This document shows, in pieces, positions 1 to 10,079 of a stretch of 64,000 nt of DNA. Location: contig PLLA01000091.1 in assembly GCA_003140835.1 (NCBI GenBank), positions 29,455 through 93,454 on the forward strand, in the 5' to 3' direction. Origin of the DNA: Candidatus Tumulicola scandinaviensis (GTDB lineage Bacteria > Vulcanimicrobiota > Vulcanimicrobiia > Vulcanimicrobiales > Vulcanimicrobiaceae). Position 1 is the stretch's first letter. Each line of letters starts with the position of its first letter. Under the pieces are notes generated by a model. The model was given only the letters and a program-made list of their open reading frames with translations, was not told the DNA's origin and made no database searches. The position numbers were made by a program, and so were the translations under genes.

Positions 1-228
1 GCAACTACGCTCTTGCTCCATGCCGTGGCCGACGCTGGATTGCAGCCGGTTCTTCCGACGCTCGGAGATCTCACACAGGTTGAACTGGCAGCGGCCGCCG
101 GCACGGTAAAGGAGGTAGTCAGCCGAGCACTCGCAGAGCTCGAGAGTAGTGGCGCAGTTCAGCGTAGCGGCGGACGCATCGTTAGGGTAGATCGAGAAAA
201 GCTGGCGAGCCACACAAGGTGTCTATAA
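1..228 (+). CDS. Crp/Fnr-family regulator, C-terminal HTH only (cut by window edge)
   Basis: This is the 75-residue tail of a transcription regulator whose N-terminus lies outside the window; the frame is open from base 1. It contains the Crp-type winged helix: a helix starting LTQVELAAAAG, the recognition-helix pattern VSRALAELESSG, and a wing ending GGRIVRVDREKL. The tail is clearly paralogous to that of the DUF2249-Crp fusion at 7937-8878, which shares TQVELAA, KEVVSRALAELE and the basic wing. The next gene, ten bases downstream, is a DUF2249 protein, so the regulator probably belongs to the redox module that follows. Its effector domain cannot be seen. By analogy with the second copy it may also carry DUF2249, but that is inference. 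Confidence 0.8.
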   Translation, partial: ATTLLLHAVADAGLQPVLPTLGDLTQVELAAAAGTVKEVVSRALAELESSGAVQRSGGRIVRVDREKLASHTRCL

Positions 229-237
229 CCACGGTCA

Positions 238-801
238 ATGCTGAATCGGCATTATAACGATAAGATTCCAGCCATGGAAGCCGATATCCGTACTCTTCCA
301 CTTGGAGAGAAGCATCGCGCTATCCATCTGCGTCTTGAGGAGTTGGAGCCGGGGAGAACTCTCCGGATCGTCAACGATTGCGATACAAGGCCGCTCCGGC
401 ACGAGTTGGAAGATGTGCACCCCGGCTGCTTTACGTGGACGTACGTCGAGTCCGGTCCGGAAGCATGGCGCGTCGATATTCTTAAGACACATGACTTCGA
501 GCCGTTGGAAGATCTTGATCTGCTTGCCGACGGCCCCGGTTTGCGCGTTGCCCAGATTCGAGTGCTTGCTGGTACGAAAGAGCGCATGATGATCTTTTCC
601 GGCAGCGCGGCCTTGATCTTCGACGAAGGAGCGGGAATGCTAGAGGTGTCGGGTCGTCGACGCGCCGTGGCGGCCGGTATCGTTGAGATCGTGTGCCCGG
701 GCGAGACCTGCTCCATATCAGCCGCAACAGAACTCCACGCTTACGTGGCGATAGCGACAGAGCCAACCAATAATAGTAGGTTCGACGTGCGTACAACCTA
801 G
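238..801 (+). CDS. DUF2249 domain protein with C-terminal cupin-like half
   Basis: The 187-residue protein has an N-terminal DUF2249 domain (about residues 13-85), with the family signature DIRTLPLGEKHRAIHLRLEEL, then a DTRPLRHELE stretch, then GPEAWRVDI. Residues 95-187 look like a small beta-rich, cupin-like domain (alternating hydrophobics, IVCPGETCSIS), which I cannot assign firmly. DUF2249 domains are small SirA/TusA-like folds often found beside nitrogen-oxide and respiratory genes; their biochemical role is not settled. The ATG at 274 (MEADIRTL) is an equally good start, because neither site has a strong ribosome-binding site. The gene sits between a Crp/Fnr regulator tail and a cytochrome b/molybdopterin protein. 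Confidence 0.75.
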   Translation: MLNRHYNDKIPAMEADIRTLPLGEKHRAIHLRLEELEPGRTLRIVNDCDTRPLRHELEDVHPGCFTWTYVESGPEAWRVDILKTHDFEPLEDLDLLADGPGLRVAQIRVLAGTKERMMIFSGSAALIFDEGAGMLEVSGRRRAVAAGIVEIVCPGETCSISAATELHAYVAIATEPTNNSRFDVRTT

Positions 802-4379: not shown

Positions 4380-4740
4380 TCGCAGACTAACGGGCATATT
4401 TCCCTGGATACATCCCGAGCCACTGCGCTTTGCACACGCGGCGTTGCTTCTGTCATGGGTGCTGCTGCTTATTGCCGGCAGCGATGACGATTTCGGTCCG
4501 TCTCCTGTCGTCACTGGCGTGGATACACGATCGTCTTTGAATAGTGCTGGAGGCGCCTAAAACGGCATGGCCGTCCACGGGCTTCATCACTGAACCTGTG
4601 AGGCACGATAGGATCGCAGACGAGCCAACCATCAATCTGGCATTGTTCTGAGTCAATGCTTTCGTAGTGTTTATTGCGGTATGCTCAAGAGGTGGCATCG
4701 CTATCAGCGCTTCGTCCTAAGGGAGAGATACCGAATTCAT
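4380..4740. other. Intergenic stretch, possible decayed membrane gene
   Basis: No intact gene is visible. On the plus strand, around 4410-4480, a frame reads PLRFAHAALLLSWVLLLIAG, one hydrophobic helix with a histidine. It could be a leftover of another membrane protein of the kind encoded at 3933 and 6511. The rest shows nothing. Confidence 0.3.
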
Positions 4741-4986
4741 ATGGATAACACGACTTCCTTGTCGCAGGAGCTAGATGTGACCGTCATAGCGCCGCGCGAC
4801 AAACACCCGACGATCCATCGGCGTCTCGACGCCCTCGCAGTTGGGGAGTCGCTCGTCATTCTCAACGATCACGATCCGCGGCCGTTGCGTTTTGAAATCG
4901 AAGCCGACCATCCGGGCAAGCACGGATGGAAATACATCGAGCAGGGTCCCGAGACGTGGCGGGTGGAGATCAATCGCCTCCCGTGA
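4741..4986 (+). CDS. DUF2249 domain protein
   Basis: This 81-residue protein consists of a single DUF2249 domain: an RDKHPTIHRRLDALAVGESL segment, then LNDHDPRPLRFE, then GWKYIEQGPETWRVEINRLP. The domain is complete and clean, with the DHDPRPL loop typical of the family. I chose the ATG at 4741, which has AGGGAGAG upstream at a slightly long distance; an ATG at 4681 would add 20 basic residues. It is the second of five DUF2249 domains between 238 and 8878. It lies just upstream of the DUF59 gene, with 37 bases between them, so it may be the first gene of the operon that follows. Confidence 0.85.
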   Translation: MDNTTSLSQELDVTVIAPRDKHPTIHRRLDALAVGESLVILNDHDPRPLRFEIEADHPGKHGWKYIEQGPETWRVEINRLP

Positions 4987-5023: not shown

Positions 5024-5332
5024 ATGAGCGAAGAGGCACGAGCGCACGAGGTTCTCGACGTCTTGCGGGGGGTCGTCGATCCCGAGTTGGGCATCGACAT
5101 CGTGTCCCTAGGATTACTCTACCGCGTTGCAGTTGACGAGGATGATGTCGCGATCGTGATGACGCTCACAGTTCCGGGATGCCCGATGCACGAGACGATC
5201 GTCCGCGACGTGAAATCGACATTGCAGCGTCTGCCGTGGGTGAGGAACGCGGAGGTGGATCTGACGTTCGAACCTCCGTGGAGCACCGAACGTTTGAGCG
5301 ACGACGCTCGTCGCGCCCTTGGACACACATGA
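5024..5332 (+). CDS. Metal-sulfur cluster assembly factor (DUF59/MIP18 family)
   Basis: This 102-residue protein is a complete DUF59 (PaaD/SufT-like) domain: VLRGVVDPELGIDIVSLGLL, then MTLTVPGCPMHETI, then a hydrophobic strand ending EPPW. The cysteine in VPGCPM is the conserved one. Members help mature Fe-S proteins. It starts at ATG 5024, and its TGA overlaps the start of ispH in an ATGA, so the two are probably translationally coupled. That pairing makes sense, since IspH carries a labile [4Fe-4S] cluster and HiPIP and ferredoxin genes are close by. Which client it serves is inference. Confidence 0.88.
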   Translation: MSEEARAHEVLDVLRGVVDPELGIDIVSLGLLYRVAVDEDDVAIVMTLTVPGCPMHETIVRDVKSTLQRLPWVRNAEVDLTFEPPWSTERLSDDARRALGHT

Positions 5333-6300
5333 ACGATCGGCGGCTACTGCTTTGCGCGCCGAGAGGCTTTTGCGCCGGCGTCAATCGCGCGATCGAAACG
5401 ATCGACCGCCTGCTGCGCGCAACCTCAGAGACGGTGTACGTGCGCAAGCAGATCGTGCACAACCGGTTCGTCGTCGAGTCGTTCGAAAGGCGCGGCGTCG
5501 TTTTCGTCGACGACGTTGAAGATGTGCCGGAGGGAGCGCTCGTGGTCTTGAGCGCGCACGGCATATCGCCGGACGTCCGAAGCCGTGCGAAGGCTCTCGG
5601 GCAGCGCATCGTGGATGCTACCTGCCCGCTCGTCACGAAGGTTCATCGGGAAGTACAGGCATTCGTGCGGGACGGATATTCCGTGCTTCTCGTCGGCCAC
5701 GGCGGCCACGAAGAAGTCGAAGGAACGATGGGACAAGTCCCCGGTGCCGTGTCGCTCGTACAAGACGTTGAGGACGTACGCTCTGCAGTTGTGTCCGATC
5801 CGCAACGGGTGGCGGTCGTAACGCAGACGACGCTGAGCGTGGCGGAGACCCGCGACGTCGTCGGCGCGTTGAAACGACGGTTTCCCGCTTTGCGCGAACC
5901 GCCAAAGGGCGACATCTGCTACGCAACGGAAAGCCGCCAGGCCGCTGTGCGCGCTCTGGCCGCGATCAGTCAAGCCATCATCGTGGTCGGATCGAGCAAC
6001 AGTTCTAACTCAGGCAGTCTGCGAGATGCAGCCGCCGGATGCGGTGCGTGCGCCTATCTCACTGACGATCCCTCCGAGATCGAACCTGCATGGCTCGGAG
6101 ACGTCCAGACGCTCGGCGTCACCGCAGGCGCATCCTCCCCCGAAGCGCTGGTGAAGTCGATCCTCGCGCGTGTCAAGATGATCGAACCGGCGTTTTCGGT
6201 CGAGAACTTCGGCGAACCAGAACCTGACATCGTATTTCTGGAGCCACCTGAACTACGACACTACCAACCCATGAAGGAGCTTATCGATGCGAACTATTGA
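5329..6300 (+). CDS. ispH: 4-hydroxy-3-methylbut-2-enyl diphosphate reductase
   Basis: The 323-residue enzyme catalyses the last step of the MEP isoprenoid pathway, reducing HMBPP to IPP and DMAPP. The [4Fe-4S] ligands are C15 (PRGFCAGV), C99 (DATCPLVTKVH) and C197 (GDICYAT). The substrate-binding H44, H77, H106, E129 and the SSNSSNS segment are all present, so it should be active. The start at 5329 overlaps the DUF59 stop. The 3' end overlaps a DUF2249 gene whose AAGGAG ribosome-binding site lies inside ispH. Finding ispH in a redox or nitrogen-oxide-like operon is unusual; either this is the only copy, or it is a second copy serving anaerobic growth. The sequence alone cannot tell. Confidence 0.95.
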   Translation: MNDRRLLLCAPRGFCAGVNRAIETIDRLLRATSETVYVRKQIVHNRFVVESFERRGVVFVDDVEDVPEGALVVLSAHGISPDVRSRAKALGQRIVDATCPLVTKVHREVQAFVRDGYSVLLVGHGGHEEVEGTMGQVPGAVSLVQDVEDVRSAVVSDPQRVAVVTQTTLSVAETRDVVGALKRRFPALREPPKGDICYATESRQAAVRALAAISQAIIVVGSSNSSNSGSLRDAAAGCGACAYLTDDPSEIEPAWLGDVQTLGVTAGASSPEALVKSILARVKMIEPAFSVENFGEPEPDIVFLEPPELRHYQPMKELIDANY

Positions 6301-6514
6301 ACTCGACGTGCGACCCTACCATGAACGCGGCGAGGAACCATTTGACGCGATCATGTCTGCGATCGACGGACTCAAAGAAAGCGAACAATTCCTGCTTGTA
6401 AACTCTTTCGAACCAAAGCCGCTGTACGCGGTGCTGAAGAAGCGCGGCTTCGATCACACGACGACGGATATGGGCAACGGGGAATGGCGGGTGCTCTTTT
6501 CGCGTACGTCATGA
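6287..6514 (+). CDS. DUF2249 domain protein
   Basis: This 75-residue stand-alone DUF2249 domain runs from ELDVRPYHERGEEPFDAIMS through FLLVNSFEPKPLYAVLKKRG to GNGEWRVLFSRT. The ATG at 6287 has AAGGAG nine bases upstream and overlaps the end of ispH by 14 bases. Its TGA overlaps the next start in an ATGA. The usual DHDP loop is changed to SFEPKPL, so it is divergent from the copy at 4741. Function is unknown. The tight overlaps argue that it acts with the membrane protein downstream. Confidence 0.82.
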   Translation: MRTIELDVRPYHERGEEPFDAIMSAIDGLKESEQFLLVNSFEPKPLYAVLKKRGFDHTTTDMGNGEWRVLFSRTS

Positions 6515-7734
6515 TCGGTCTCGGCGATCGCGTGAGCGATCCGGTCGGAAGCGGCTGGGTCCTGGCCGGATCGCTTCTGTTTTTCTTAACCGGCTGCATG
6601 CTGCTGGCGATCGGAGGCACCTCGCTCGGCGCGCTTCACGCCTTCGCTGCGTTTCTCGTCCTCGCCGTCGTCGCCGCGCTCAACCAACTGCTGCCGGTGC
6701 TCACCCACGCGCCCGTCGCACGTCCACAGAGCGTTATCGCGGTCGCGACCGGATTCGCAATCGGCTTTTCCCTGTTGATTGCGGCCTTTTACGGCGCCCC
6801 GATGTTCGGTGCCGCCGGAATCGTGCTCGCGTTGACGGCGATCGCGTGGGTGCTCTGGAACATGGTCCGGCTCTGGGCCGGTCGCGACGAGCGAGAAACG
6901 CGGGTGCTCGTGGCGTTTGCGACGATCGCATTTGCCGGCGCGGTGGGAATCGGCGCGCTAATGACGTGCACGCTGGGTGGCCGGTGCTCCGCCCAGATCG
7001 TGGGACTTGCACCGCTGCACGCTTTCCTGGCGGTCGCCGGGTTCGCGTCGTTGCTCATCGTCGCGGTCTCCTTTCGGTTCGTTCCCATGTTCGCGGTCGC
7101 GCACGGCGATGCGTACGGGCGGCGCGCGATGCAATGGGTGGCGGTGGCAGGCGTCGCGGTGGCGGCCGGTTCGCTCCACTGGCCGCTGGGATTGCGCCTG
7201 GGCCTCCTCGAACTGCTCGCGAGCGCCATTTCGATAGGCGCCTCGCATATGCGCACGCTTGCCACGCGGCTGCGCAAGCGTGTCGACGTCAGCCTTCGGT
7301 ACGGCTCCGTCGCGTGGTGCCTCGCGATCGTAGCGATTTTCGTAGCGCTCGCCGCAACGTGGCAGACTGGTCTTCAAACGGCGGCCGTGATTCTCGCAGT
7401 CCTCGGTTGGATCTCGATTACGATCCTCGGATACGCGTACAAGGTTGCTGGCTTTCTCGCTTGGCAGGTGGCCAAGGAGCGGGACCCGGCGGCACAACTT
7501 CCCGCACTGAGCACCGCCGTTCATCTGCCGCTCGCATATGCCGCATTAGCGTTCCTCGGAGCGGGAACGTGCATCGCAGCATTCTGCTCGTTCGTCTTTC
7601 CGGATCACGTCGGCGTGGGCTACGGTCTCTACGCGATCGGCGGATTGGCGGCGGTTGTCGCCCTTGCAAAACTCGCATCGCTCTACATTCTGAGAAGGCA
7701 GCCGAATGGAACCTCAGTGCGTGCAACTGGATAA
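6511..7734 (+). CDS. Polytopic membrane protein, NnrS/heme-copper-oxidase-I-like
   Basis: This is a roughly 407-residue integral membrane protein with about eleven to twelve helices. Two helices carry histidines in oxidase-like settings: GALHAFAAFLVLAVVAALNQ with LLPVLTH, and PLHAFLAVAGFASLLIVAVS with RFVPMF. This recalls NnrS and CcoN-like proteins, which bind heme and often relate to NO metabolism. I do not see the full set of six histidines of a catalytic oxidase. The ATG at 6511 overlaps the previous stop as ATGA and is preferred over ATG 6484. The gene overlaps the next DUF2249 gene by 29 bases. A role in NO or oxygen handling is inferred from fold and neighbours only. Confidence 0.7.
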   Translation: MIGLGDRVSDPVGSGWVLAGSLLFFLTGCMLLAIGGTSLGALHAFAAFLVLAVVAALNQLLPVLTHAPVARPQSVIAVATGFAIGFSLLIAAFYGAPMFGAAGIVLALTAIAWVLWNMVRLWAGRDERETRVLVAFATIAFAGAVGIGALMTCTLGGRCSAQIVGLAPLHAFLAVAGFASLLIVAVSFRFVPMFAVAHGDAYGRRAMQWVAVAGVAVAAGSLHWPLGLRLGLLELLASAISIGASHMRTLATRLRKRVDVSLRYGSVAWCLAIVAIFVALAATWQTGLQTAAVILAVLGWISITILGYAYKVAGFLAWQVAKERDPAAQLPALSTAVHLPLAYAALAFLGAGTCIAAFCSFVFPDHVGVGYGLYAIGGLAAVVALAKLASLYILRRQPNGTSVRATG

Positions 7735-7933
7735 TCGCGGCTTATCTCCGCCGGAGCCGATGCTGCGAATCCTCATGGCTCTCGATGCGCTCGAACCCAG
7801 CGGCAAAATCGTTGCGAAGATGGATCGGCGGCCGATGTTCCTCTTTCCAGAGCTGGACGAGCGGGGATGTACGTACACGTGCGACCCCGACGACGAAGGC
7901 GGGTTTCTTCTGGTCATCGAGAAGAAGCGGTAG
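7706..7933 (+). CDS. DUF2249 domain protein
   Basis: This 75-residue protein has the DUF2249 layout, LDNRGLSPPEPMLRILMALD, then a turn, then AKMDRRPMFLFPELDERG. The third segment is altered (EGGFLLVIEKK instead of W.V.I), making it the most divergent of the five. The start lies inside the preceding membrane-protein gene, completing a chain of overlapping genes from 5024 to 7933. The convergent regulator gene ends three bases away. Function is unknown. Confidence 0.75.
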   Translation: MEPQCVQLDNRGLSPPEPMLRILMALDALEPSGKIVAKMDRRPMFLFPELDERGCTYTCDPDDEGGFLLVIEKKR

Positions 7934-7936
7934 ACG

Positions 7937-8878
7937 TCACTCGCGTTCGATTACGTCGACCAGCTTGGCACGATCGAGCTTGACAATGTGACCGCCGTCG
8001 CGACGAATGGCTCCAAACACCTCCAACTCGGCCAACGCTCGACTAACGACTTCCTTCCCGGTGCCGGCGGAGGCCGCGAGCTCCACTTGCGTCATCTTTT
8101 GCAGTGGCGCTAATGCTTCGGTGAGCCCCAATGCCGGGGCTGCGTAGGGAAGCAGAACCTGAGCGACCCGGAGCATCGTTGGAAGCGAGAGATGCGCCTC
8201 GAAGCGGCCGAGTATGGCGCGCGTATGTTGAGCCGCCGTCTCCTCCAGCTGCTGTCGTATTGTGCGGTCGTGCTCTACGACCGCGCGTAGCCTTTCCGTC
8301 GGCAAGAGAAGCACGATGGTGTCGGCCGTGAGCGCGACGTGACGCATCGACATATGACCGCGGTCAAAGAACGCGGTCTCGGCGAAGAGATCGCCGGGCA
8401 GCACGTCGTACATCGCCTGTTCTCGCCCGGCGGCCGTCACGAGTTGCGCTTGCACGATACCGGTCTCGACGACGCCCACATATGGCCAAAGTACGCCTTG
8501 CTCGGCCACACAATGGTGGCGCTTAATCGCGACCCGCCGGCTATAATGCGCTAGCTCTTGCAAAACGTTTTGATTAGCCTGGGAGAAGACAGTGCTGCGC
8601 AGCAATCCGGCCTCGATCGCAGCATCCGGGGCAACCGCCCTCGGTCGGCAGAGGCGTACTTCCCAGCGCCCATCGCCAAGCTGGCGCTGCATCCATACGA
8701 ATTGGGTGCCGTGCACGCGGTCGAACTCGGTCCGTAACGGCCTGGGTTCATGGTCGGAGATCAAAATCAGCGCCTGGCCATCGTGCAGGGATGCGAAAAG
8801 CGCGAAAATTCGCCGGTGACGTTCCGGCGGCGGAAGGGAGCGCACATCCAGTTGCAGGTCGGGATGCTGAATCGGTTC
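7937..8878 (-). CDS. Crp/Fnr-type regulator with N-terminal DUF2249 domain
   Basis: The protein of about 313 residues has three parts. A DUF2249 domain (about 1-80) reads LQLDVRSLPPPERHRRIFAL, then SDHEPRPLRTEF, then GDGRWEVRL. A cyclic-nucleotide-binding-type beta barrel (about 95-220) has PGDLFAETAFF. A Crp-type winged helix (about 240-313) has MTQVELAASAGTGKEVVSRA. No Fnr-type N-terminal cysteine cluster is present, so sensing probably uses DUF2249 and/or the barrel. The start is uncertain: I use GTG 8878, because upstream ATGs would run into the divergent ferredoxin gene at 8949. Its tail is paralogous to the one at 1-228. It likely controls the surrounding genes. Confidence 0.75.
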   Translation of the reverse strand, partial: EPIQHPDLQLDVRSLPPPERHRRIFALFASLHDGQALILISDHEPRPLRTEFDRVHGTQFVWMQRQLGDGRWEVRLCRPRAVAPDAAIEAGLLRSTVFSQANQNVLQELAHYSRRVAIKRHHCVAEQGVLWPYVGVVETGIVQAQLVTAAGREQAMYDVLPGDLFAETAFFDRGHMSMRHVALTADTIVLLLPTERLRAVVEHDRTIRQQLEETAAQHTRAILGRFEAHLSLPTMLRVAQVLLPYAAPALGLTEALAPLQKMTQVELAASAGTGKEVVSRALAELEVFGAIRRDGGHIVKLDRAKLVDVIERE

Positions 8879-8933
8879 CACTTTTGTCGCAGGGAAGCGT
8901 TGGTCTAGGTCACGGCGGGTTCCGCCATGCCGC

Positions 8934-8948
8934 AGTATCGTTGATACT
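8934..8948. promoter_or_regulatory. Perfect inverted repeat abutting the ferredoxin start codon
   Basis: AGTATC-GTT-GATACT is a perfect 6-bp inverted repeat with a 3-base spacer. It ends one base before the ferredoxin ATG, between the divergent regulator and ferredoxin genes. No ribosome-binding site is visible before that ATG. It could be an operator or a short hairpin at the 5' end of a leaderless mRNA. It does not match the usual Fnr box. Confidence 0.45.
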
Positions 8949-9206
8949 ATGGCGTACGTCATCGCCGAACCTTGCATCGGAGTCAAAGACCGGAGTTGCG
9001 TCGACGTCTGTCCGGTGGACTGCATTCATGGCTCGGAAACGAACCCCATGCTCTACATCGATCCAGAGGTCTGCATCGACTGCGGAGCGTGTGTTTCAGC
9101 CTGCCCGGTCGAGGCTATCTACGGCGAGAGCGACGTACCGGAAAAATGGACGTCATATATCGCCGTCAACGCGGAATACTACGAGAAAGTGCCAGACAAA
9201 TCATGA
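8949..9206 (+). CDS. 7Fe ferredoxin ([3Fe-4S]/[4Fe-4S])
   Basis: This 85-residue ferredoxin is close to the Thermus/actinobacterial 7Fe type. C9, C17 and C52 are placed for a [3Fe-4S] cluster (CIGVKDRSC, then ACPVEA), while C21, C42, C45 and C48 hold a [4Fe-4S] cluster (CVDVCPVDC, CIDCGAC). An extra C25 is normal for this type. The C-terminal segment VPEKWTSYI is also typical. It is a low-potential cytoplasmic carrier and could supply IspH or other reductases in this module. The ATG follows an inverted repeat directly, with no Shine-Dalgarno sequence, so translation may be leaderless. The oxidase remnants downstream are on the opposite strand. Confidence 0.93.
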   Translation: MAYVIAEPCIGVKDRSCVDVCPVDCIHGSETNPMLYIDPEVCIDCGACVSACPVEAIYGESDVPEKWTSYIAVNAEYYEKVPDKS

Positions 9207-9280
9207 GCACACCGGCGCCAAGTGTTGTAGATCGGACAAAAGTAATCGGCCGCATCATCGAGTAACGCTTGGTCGCTACT

Positions 9281-9598
9281 ATAGGCGGTCGCAACGAGCA
9301 CGCCGGCAAGGAAGAAGCGGCATGCAACGAACCGCACGCGATAATCGATCTCGACCTCCTGCCGGACCAGGTACCAGAGCAAGCCAAGGCCCGAGATCGC
9401 CATCACGACGATCATTCCGACGCCGCGCAGGCTCAGAATCGAATAGAACGTTCCCGGATCGATGGAAATCCAGCCGGCATGCGACGCGCGCAGACCGATC
9501 CCGGCCAGCACTGTCAGCGCAAAGACGGCAAGTCTCGTGCCGATGTACGCCCACATCACGCGCGTTCCCGGAACGCCATCGTTTCGTGCTTCCGTCAT
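9281..9598 (-). pseudogene. Heme-copper oxidase subunit I, N-terminal fragment
   Basis: About 106 residues match the start of a ba3-like subunit I: a first helix (YIGTRLAVFALTVLAGIGLR), then ISIDPGTFYSILSLRGVGMI and a second helix. The heme-ligand histidine expected in the L-H-G step is arginine (LRG). Family similarity stops at about 9281, and the frame runs on with unrelated sequence to 9179. Its ATG overlaps the stop of the subunit II remnant as ATGA, the usual coxB-coxA order. Most helices and all other metal ligands are missing, so it cannot be functional. Confidence 0.65.
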
Positions 9599-10079
9599 CG
9601 TACATCGAACTCTCCTTGCATGGCTGCGTGCGCGATGCCGCAGTATTCGAGGCAGCGCAGCGTATAATGCCCTGGCACTTTGAACGTCACGGGCAGACGG
9701 TTGACGTACCCAGGCATCGCTTGCACCTGACTGACCAAACTGCCGTCCGGGCCGTAAATGCCGAAGCCGTGGTTGACGTCCTTCGAGGTCACGTCGAAGA
9801 CGACGGGTTGACCCAGCAGGATGACGCCGGCAACGGTAAACCCGTATTGCTGCGCGGTGACGGAAAAGTGCTTAGCGACCGGTGATGCTTGTGCTTGCGG
9901 ATATGGGAAGTGCGGAATCGTCAGCGCGAACGACGCAGCGCCTAGCCGCGCGCGGCGACGACTTCTTGCGCGACGGGCGACCGCGATCCTACGTTGGCCA
10001 GCGCCACCCTGGCGGCGATGACGAGCCAGGAAACGGTGCCGGCGGAGAGTGCGATCGTGGCTTCGGCCGGCTCTTCAGA
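9595..10079 (-). pseudogene. Heme-copper oxidase subunit II (CuA), 5' end broken
   Basis: The CuA domain is complete: HFSVTAQQYGF, then FDVTSKDVNHGFGIYGPDG, then the metal site CLEYCGIAHAAM with both cysteines, the histidine and the methionine. Upstream, the frame slips in a GC-run near 9946, beyond which a different frame gives a single membrane helix (TVSWLVIAARVALANVG). That frame is closed by a stop at 10080-10082, and no start codon is visible. With the truncated subunit I downstream this is a dead oxidase operon. If the slip is a sequencing error, only the start codon would still be lacking. Confidence 0.65.

Follow-up and report, generated by a model that had tools for sequence, protein, structure and literature searches.

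A DUF2249-Crp/Fnr fusion regulator family of the class Eremiobacteria, with one paralogue group linked to predicted nitric oxide reductase genes

The 64,000-nucleotide stretch of Candidatus Tumulicola scandinaviensis DNA analyzed here (contig PLLA01000091.1, positions 29,455 to 93,454; G000:C89:29455-93454 in our genome set, hereafter the window) encodes a transcription regulator in which a DUF2249 domain is fused to the N-terminus of a Crp/Fnr-type protein. The source assembly is 4.0 Mb in 130 contigs and 91.9% complete. The regulator belongs to a class-wide family, which is a new architecture variant of Crp/Fnr with an N-terminal domain of predicted TusA fold. Judging from sequence and gene context, the window paralogue is most likely a regulator of nitric oxide (NO) respiration or of low-oxygen respiration.

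Domain architecture of the fusion

The fusion gene is on the minus strand at 7937..8881. It encodes, in a single frame and in this order, a DUF2249 domain (8651..8851), a cyclic nucleotide monophosphate (cNMP)-binding-type barrel (8270..8530), and a Crp-type helix-turn-helix (HTH; 7958..8170) with recognition positions K276, E277, and R281. All three domains score above the cut-offs of their profiles. PF10006 (DUF2249) gives 78.1 bits against a cut-off of 29.5 and covers profile residues 2-68 of 70, PF00027 (cNMP barrel) gives 39.2 against 27.5, and PF13545 (HTH_Crp_2) gives 36.2 against 27. These scores confirm the DUF2249-barrel-HTH fusion that a preliminary description of this DNA had proposed, including the DUF2249 identity of the N-terminal region, on which that proposal depended. 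A cNMP barrel followed by HTH_Crp places the window protein in the Crp/Fnr superfamily.

The longest open reading frame has 362 amino acids and starts from an ATG at 9025. The GTG at 8881, which gives a protein of 314 amino acids, is the likelier start because the paralogues have about 315-320 amino acids and a divergent ferredoxin gene begins at 8949; the right edge given previously (8878) is three bases inside this codon. The ratio of non-synonymous to synonymous substitutions (dN/dS) in the DUF2249 segment was 0.01-0.12 in eight of ten fusion pairs, close to the values of the barrel and HTH, and the two other pairs, including the window’s own (pN 0.30, pS 0.79), were saturated. A start after the DUF2249 part is implausible since this segment is under purifying selection, and a downstream start or a frame artefact was rejected on the basis of this selection together with the class-wide presence of the fusion. 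The DUF2249 part of the fusions is translated and kept.

Distribution and origin of the family

We built a profile (A1) from the four fusions of the source genome and searched it against 149 genomes of the phylum, 117 from the same class and 32 from outside it. The profile matched 114 of the 117 class genomes at E<=1e-73, and the search for the same fusion in other genomes, which had been suggested earlier, was thus successful. Of the three remaining class genomes, G022 and G105 had no match and G069 matched at 5e-17, with completeness of 72, 56, and 61%, respectively. The fusions of family f3 score lower on A1 (E 3e-74 to 1e-81). DUF2249 itself is above the cut-off in 115 of the 117 class genomes. 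No DUF2249-Crp fusion was found in the 32 sampled phylum members outside the class, where no match spans DUF2249 into the Crp part, A1 matches that reach the barrel start at position 65 or later, and PF10006 has no hit at these places. Five of these 32 genomes have DUF2249 elsewhere, apart from the Crp matches. Unfused Crp proteins outside the class score at most 92 bits on A1, versus 290-521 for the fusions among the matches listed.

The source genome has eight DUF2249 matches, four in DUF2249-Crp fusions and four in other DUF2249 genes, which are all inside the window. Thirteen HTH_Crp_2 matches were found in this genome (10 above the cut-off), and four of the 13 are in the fusions. The four fusions are the window copy, a copy ending at window positions 1..228 on the plus strand, L010 (contig C46), and L011 (contig C24). 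The HTH at 1..228, described before as being of the same type, turned out to be the end of this second fusion, which is of group C (see below). Its DUF2249 and barrel are beyond the left edge of the window, separated from the HTH by an NN assembly gap. Two such scaffold gaps (C89:29453-29454 and L009:14569-14570) bracket the 883-bp piece that encodes the first part of this fusion. Only the scaffold joins the two halves across the gap, although the sequence context is coherent.

We collected 129 distinct fusions, which fall into group A (95 rows, with L010), group B (14 rows, with L011), and group C (20 rows, with the window and L009 copies). The full-length tree of all 129 is a quick tree with a weak root. 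In a tree of the Crp part only, containing 36 of the 129 fusions and 21 unfused rows (five of the unfused from the source genome), a branch with 100/99 support separates all sampled fused sequences from the unfused ones. This single clade argues for one fusion event. A single event no later than the base of the class Eremiobacteria, followed by duplication, would most simply explain the sequences and is well supported in this sample. Inside the clade of this tree, group C is a grade that includes B, and group A is a single group in only 34% of the bootstrap trees. The single clade and the conservation across the class bear out the previous proposal that the fusion ties DUF2249 to transcription control.

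A scan of named genomes with one group-A protein as the query, which finds close relatives only, gave relatives 63-92% identical to L010 over nearly the full length. They are named Candidatus Eremiobacterota or Vulcanimicrobiota, except for two labelled Rhodospirillales and several labelled ‘bacterium’. The two Rhodospirillales-labelled fusions (L164 and L166) are 70-71% identical to L010 and nest within the Eremiobacterota tree, indicating mislabelled bins or transfer. The window protein matched 199 plasmid records, two of them at 80% coverage among the 15 matches listed. Both are from Rhodococcus opacus PD630, and in the one opened (H1) the match spans two separate genes; fusions on plasmids were rejected at this scope.

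Groups A and B have their own neighbors. The group-B fusion adjoins serS in all six loci tested. A thiolase-type gene was found in 52 of the 79 group-A loci (L102-L180), and in all 52 the fusion is divergent from it, with 22-131 bp separating the aligned ends (e.g., L010:4850-6082 and 6112-7059); the name thiolase was read from the sequence and not from a family search. There is a hint that the near-universal group-A paralogue may control fatty-acid or polyhydroxybutyrate metabolism. Two other architectures were also seen. L077:15883-16878, on a stretch with a DUF2249 cassette and no DUF2249-Crp gene, has a thioredoxin/glutaredoxin-like N-terminus fused to a Crp protein (a weak thioredoxin-family match) and is possibly another redox-domain/Crp fusion. 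In L081 (G029:C82, around 9320-9769, minus strand), DUF2249 is at the C-terminal side of a 348-amino-acid frame without a Crp part, which is a distinct architecture.

Conserved residues and predicted fold of the DUF2249 domain

Residues of the fusion are numbered from the GTG at 8881. His22 (8816..8818, minus strand) is present in 19 of the 20 group-C rows, 7 of the 95 group-A rows, and none of the 14 group-B rows. His44 of the DHEPRPL motif (8750..8752, minus strand) is present in 17/20, 3/95, and 3/14 rows of groups C, A, and B, and the two histidines occur together in 17/20, 3/95, and 0/14. The other residues at these positions are mostly Thr or Ser in group A, whereas in group B position 22 is Pro and position 44 is Asn or His. 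Canonical DUF2249 has these two histidines as well, as does the type-a stand-alone protein (KH...NDHDPRPL), and RH and DHxPxPL are present in the window protein.

No Fnr-type cysteine cluster was found in the 129 fusions, which have 0-5 cysteines per protein with a median of 1-2 in the three groups. The window protein has two, at 78 and 124, and neither is recurrent, in agreement with the absence of an Fnr cluster reported in the preliminary description. Iron-sulfur (Fe-S) sensing by the fusion’s own cysteines was therefore rejected. The most recurrent cysteine is at position 96, just past DUF2249 (12/20 C, 7/14 B, and 20/95 A rows); this position is Ser in the window (8594-8596). DUF2249 had been suggested to be a ligand- or cluster-sensing module. 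The ligand-sensing role is plausible for the window type because both histidines are kept in 17 of the 20 group-C rows, but an Fe-S cluster bound by its own residues is not supported.

The AlphaFold2 model of the 314-residue fusion has a mean predicted local distance difference test (pLDDT) score of 82.8 and a predicted template modeling (pTM) score of 0.67, at which the relative domain orientation is not to be trusted. The strands and helices of DUF2249 are between residues 9 and 78, and the Crp/FNR part begins at about residue 83. The structural matches of the whole model were led only by CRP/FNR/cNMP folds and were uninformative on the N-terminal part, so DUF2249 was folded alone (35 sequences; pLDDT 84.3, pTM 0.70). 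It was predicted as β-α-β-α-β-β. The best matches were YeeD/TsuB (Z 9.6), a SirA-like protein (9.1), and TusA with IscS (8.7 and 8.2), over 71-73 residues each, and the other folds listed had Z of 8.0 or less. Two results speak against this assignment, namely that the nuclear magnetic resonance model of TusA (YhhP) has a Z of only 6.8, among unrelated rows, and that Foldseek matches were weak (E 0.035-0.08). A PDB sequence search with three queries found no relative of DUF2249. On balance, the domain is predicted to have a TusA/SirA-like fold without the sulfur-carrying cysteine.

In TusA, this cysteine sits in a CPxP motif. The cysteine position is Pro in the fusion when aligned by eye, the window reads PPPERH at the place of CPxP, and no cysteine is recurrent in the DUF2249 segment of any of the three groups. 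From the predicted secondary structure, His22 likely starts helix 1, one helical turn past the TusA cysteine position, and His44 would be in the loop before helix 2. Both histidines would then be at the sheet end corresponding to the TusA active site.

Link of group C to an NO reductase-type enzyme

We called group C at a score of at least 390 bits, which gave 26 of the 117 class genomes and left out four genomes with intermediate scores on profile A3 (G077, G091, G086, and G087). Heme-copper subunit I and II genes adjoin the group-C fusions in L062, L063, L071, and L073. In an alignment with the T. thermophilus ba3 oxidase, the position of the cross-linked Tyr (GHPIVY) is Asn (GHxxAN) in the linked enzyme. 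The enzyme is present in 22 of the 24 scanned loci, always with Asn (L199 and L200 have none), and all 14 distinct enzyme genes checked, from 14 of the 28 genomes having the gene, contain Asn. An opposite-strand frame in L198 with Asp at the motif is broken by a stop and was rejected. According to the available text of PMC8756737, O2 reductases have Tyr at this position, and sNOR and CuA-NOR have Asn. The linked enzyme is likely of the CuA-NOR/sNOR type, i.e., a predicted NO reductase (NOR). Weak COX2-like matches in L064 (29-34%) and a 21% COX1 match in L075, which is an aa3-type oxidase, were not counted as NOR.

The NOR-like gene is present in 28 of the 117 class genomes, and its occurrence follows that of group C. 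Both are found in 21 genomes, group C only in five, NOR only in seven, and neither in 84 (Fisher 7e-13; the test covered only the Tyr-less NOR-type enzyme). Counted by genus, the numbers are 11/1/4/32 (p 6.5e-7), and a within-genus permutation gave p=5e-5. Adding G077 and G091 to group C changed the counts to 21/7/7/82 (p=1e-11). In genus g5, the one genome of 18 with group C is also the only one with the reductase. Of the 21 genomes having both, 12 have the two genes on one contig and no more than 3 kb apart.

Several observations weigh against a strict link to NO. NOR is missing from five genomes with group C, two of which are 82-88% complete, and group C is missing from seven genomes with NOR. 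The NOR linked to the window fusion itself is a remnant (9179..9598, minus strand; about 120 of 490 amino acids match), and no group-C fusion lies in the 13 kb retrieved around the intact subunit I/II pair of the source genome, on contig C125. Genes for cbb3-like oxidases, under the family cut-offs, are found by the fusion of L067 and, as a homologue, by that of L076, and a gene for an aa3-type oxidase by that of L075; with these oxidases beside group-C loci, O2 is a real alternative signal. No nirK (Cu nitrite reductase) was above the cut-off in the 117 genomes, so NO would have to come from neighbors or other enzymes. Taking both sides together, the NO link of group C is moderately supported.

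Gene neighborhood of group C

The preliminary description placed four stand-alone DUF2249 proteins around the window regulator and suggested that they communicate with it. All four genes, on the plus strand, score above the cut-off (69.9, 86.3, 67.1, and 45.7 bits). The one at 238..801 has a C-terminal extension that is cupin-like by eye and without a Pfam match, so it is not a bare DUF2249 domain. Its relatives with a cupin-looking C-terminal half adjoin group-C fusions in L066, L067, and L072. The others are type a (4681..4986), type b (6287..6514), and type c (7706..7933), the last of which also matches the TusA profile at 26.3 bits, under the cut-off of 28.6. The positional tie to the regulator is seen in 15 of the 26 group-C genomes, where the contig stretch of the fusion also carries a stand-alone DUF2249. 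It fails in the other 11, which are G094, G108, G126, and eight of genus g12 with the cassette on another contig, and these count against the mechanism proposed below.

The typical cassette order is DUF2249a - DUF2249b - membrane protein - DUF2249c - SufT. In the window, the gene at 5027..5332 on the plus strand, with an approximate start, encodes an Fe-S assembly protein of the SufT type (PF01883), which is a recurrent member of the cassette. The polytopic-looking membrane protein (6484..7734, plus strand) has no Pfam or NCBIfam match; ‘NnrS-like’ is our presumptive working label for it, which neither database supports. A 4Fe-4S-type ferredoxin (Fer4; 8949..9206, plus strand) is divergent from the fusion. 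Beyond it is a CuA subunit-II-type coding stretch (9598..9930, minus strand) with an intact CuA motif, CLEYCGIAHAAM, which is 61% identical to the subunit II adjoining the NOR-like gene of L062. A further gene of the window, at 813-2492, encodes in one chain a membrane domain of the cytochrome b561 type fused to an oxidoreductase molybdopterin domain and has relatives at 83-85% in L072 and L076.

We read 18 group-C loci closely (the window and L009, which form one region, L062-L076, and L080). Nine of these have the window-type membrane protein, six have SufT, and five have the divergent ferredoxin, although most of the loci were picked for DUF2249 neighbors, which biases the counts upward relative to the unbiased 15 of 26 genomes. 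The ferredoxin loci are the window, L064, L075, L080, and L076, the last with a Rieske-type gene between. The SufT, ferredoxin, membrane protein, and CuA/heme-copper genes were found in none of the 99 loci of the other groups, where only DUF2249 matched; these loci are shorter (mostly flanks of 4 kb or less), and the contrast thus holds for near neighbors. The membrane protein is in 18 of the 117 class genomes, and 17 of these have group C.

Candidate DNA sites

The recognition positions of the HTH are K/R276, E/D277, and R281 across the fusions. A perfect palindrome, AGTATC-GTT-GATACT (8934..8948, plus strand), ends at the ferredoxin ATG and is an operator candidate. It is the only exact match in the 64 kb and in the 30 loci scanned. 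Partial likeness was seen only in L063 and L075, and the palindrome is not generally conserved.

An FNR-like pattern, TTGAY-N4-RTCAA, was scanned in 28 loci (403 kb). The scan omitted L009, L074, L079, L081, and L181-L190; most of L181-L190 duplicate stretches that were already included, but L187, L190, and the left part of L009 do not. Two exact sites were found, one before DUF2249a in L071 and one between the fusion and its divergent neighbor in L076. Both are in the 46 operon-head regions (8.0 kb), i.e., heads of the cassette, fusion, ferredoxin, or reductase operons. Random placement gives p 8e-4, a value weakened by the partial choice of the pattern after an earlier scan and by the AT-richness of intergenic regions, which random placement ignores. 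With one mismatch, four sites are in the operon heads versus 0.95 expected (p 0.013). Sites with at most one mismatch were about twofold over a first-order Markov expectation (12 vs 5.5 for TTGAT and 13 vs 7.4 for TTGAC). CRP-type TGTGA sites were not enriched, with four found versus 5.3 expected. The window has a weak one-mismatch TTGAY-type site at 4643..4656 (plus strand), before the type-a DUF2249 gene.

Proposed mechanism and alternative explanations

We propose that the His-bearing, TusA-fold DUF2249 of the group-C fusion signals to control NO (or low-O2) respiration. This is our best overall explanation, and we consider it about evenly balanced between right and wrong. The domain would respond to NO or, less likely, to low O2 or a metal/redox signal made by it, either directly or after exchange with the stand-alone DUF2249 proteins. 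The signal may alter the Crp part, which would bind FNR/DNR-like sites and control the DUF2249/membrane-protein/SufT cassette, the divergent ferredoxin, and the CuA-type NO reductase. We infer the signal, the ligand site, the DNA target, and the direction of control.

The stand-alone proteins could have a larger part than this. The fused DUF2249 may be a docking or decoy domain which pairs with them, in which case the regulator would sense how abundant or how loaded they are. Partner binding is a known role of the TusA fold, an IscS-TusA complex is among the DUF2249 fold matches, and 15 of the 26 group-C genomes carry a stand-alone DUF2249 on the contig of the fusion, with the eight g12 genomes carrying it at another place in the genome. 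However, the fusion is the single DUF2249 match in many class genomes, the group-C loci L075, L076, and L080 have no stand-alone DUF2249 on their stretch, and mere docking would not require the kept histidine pair. We regard docking as an unlikely explanation. The signal could instead be low O2 or redox, with the NO reductase being one of several heme-copper targets as for FNR, FixK, and ANR. The oxidase genes by L067, L076, and L075, the exact FNR box in L076, and a possible redox activity of the single Cys96 (Ser in the window) in group C are in line with this. The tight co-occurrence with the Tyr-less NOR-type enzyme, the sole enzyme so compared, and the absence of a cysteine cluster in the fusions argue in the other direction, and an O2 or redox signal is improbable in our judgment.

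A cyclic nucleotide in the Crp barrel could also be the regulator, with DUF2249 as a vestigial or purely structural extension. The barrel matches the cNMP fold, Arg180 of the phosphate cassette is kept in 20/20 C, 14/14 B, and 89/95 A rows, and groups A and B persist though their histidines are largely lost. However, the cassette typical of cAMP binding (Gly-Glu...Arg-Ser) is not intact, and the window reads A-E...R-H. Position 181, which we take to be Ser83 of E. coli CRP, is Ser or Thr in only 0/20 C, 1/14 B, and 7/95 A rows. The strong purifying selection on the DUF2249 segment and the retention of both histidines in 17 of 20 rows of the fast-evolving group C are also against this explanation, which we consider very unlikely. 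Returning to a histidine-based NO response, a broader and rather unlikely extension is that DUF2249 is generally a gas/metal sensor, a TusA fold whose cysteine was traded for a two-His NO site, perhaps via a metal. The class would have built Crp regulators on it, group C reading NO and group A, with its histidines mostly lost, being converted to another ligand and often divergent beside the thiolase gene.

Comparison with known systems

Among Crp/Fnr proteins, the fusion resembles DNR, NNR, and NnrR in having the Crp/Fnr fold without Fe-S cysteines and in being beside NO-reductase genes. The structural matches of the fusion model include DNR of P. aeruginosa (3dkw, rank 32). DNR senses NO via heme in its barrel and has no N-terminal DUF2249, whereas the fusion has a separate TusA-fold domain. 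The fusion shares the Crp fold with FNR, whose structures are among the tied best barrel matches (Z ~16), as well as the E/R recognition positions and FNR-like boxes near some members, but it does not have the N-terminal cysteine cluster. The predicted DUF2249 fold is like that of the sulfur-relay proteins TusA, SirA, and YeeD, with the difference that the sulfur-carrying cysteine of CPxP is replaced by Pro and a His pair is present instead.

DUF2249 is described as a widespread domain of unknown biochemical role whose genome context ties it to denitrification, NO reductases, and hemerythrins; four DUF2249 genes of Haloferax mediterranei are induced during denitrification (both in the available text of PMC11218638). 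In Thermus, the DUF2249 protein DrpA of the DrpA/DrpB pair was proposed as a nitrate sensor in the control of nitrate respiration; it is a separate periplasmic protein without a DNA-binding domain (PMC6282519). Given this precedent, a connection of DUF2249 with regulation had in part been made before (PMC6282519). In Ralstonia, COG4309 (DUF2249)-norB operons have NsrR and DNR sites (PMC1274295). They similarly combine DUF2249 beside an NO reductase with Crp-type control, but regulator and DUF2249 are separate genes there and fused here (PMC1274295). We found no description of a DUF2249-Crp fusion in the open literature on DUF2249/COG4309, as far as its available texts go and with subscription papers and preprints outside this scope.

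Significance

The fusion to a DNA-binding reporter makes the function of DUF2249 directly assayable, as whatever shifts DNA binding via the N-terminal domain is the signal. The window-type fusion travels with NO-reductase-like genes, which provides a handle for what DUF2249 senses. For a largely uncultured soil phylum, the fusion family is a near-universal regulator, together with a predicted NO-related regulon.

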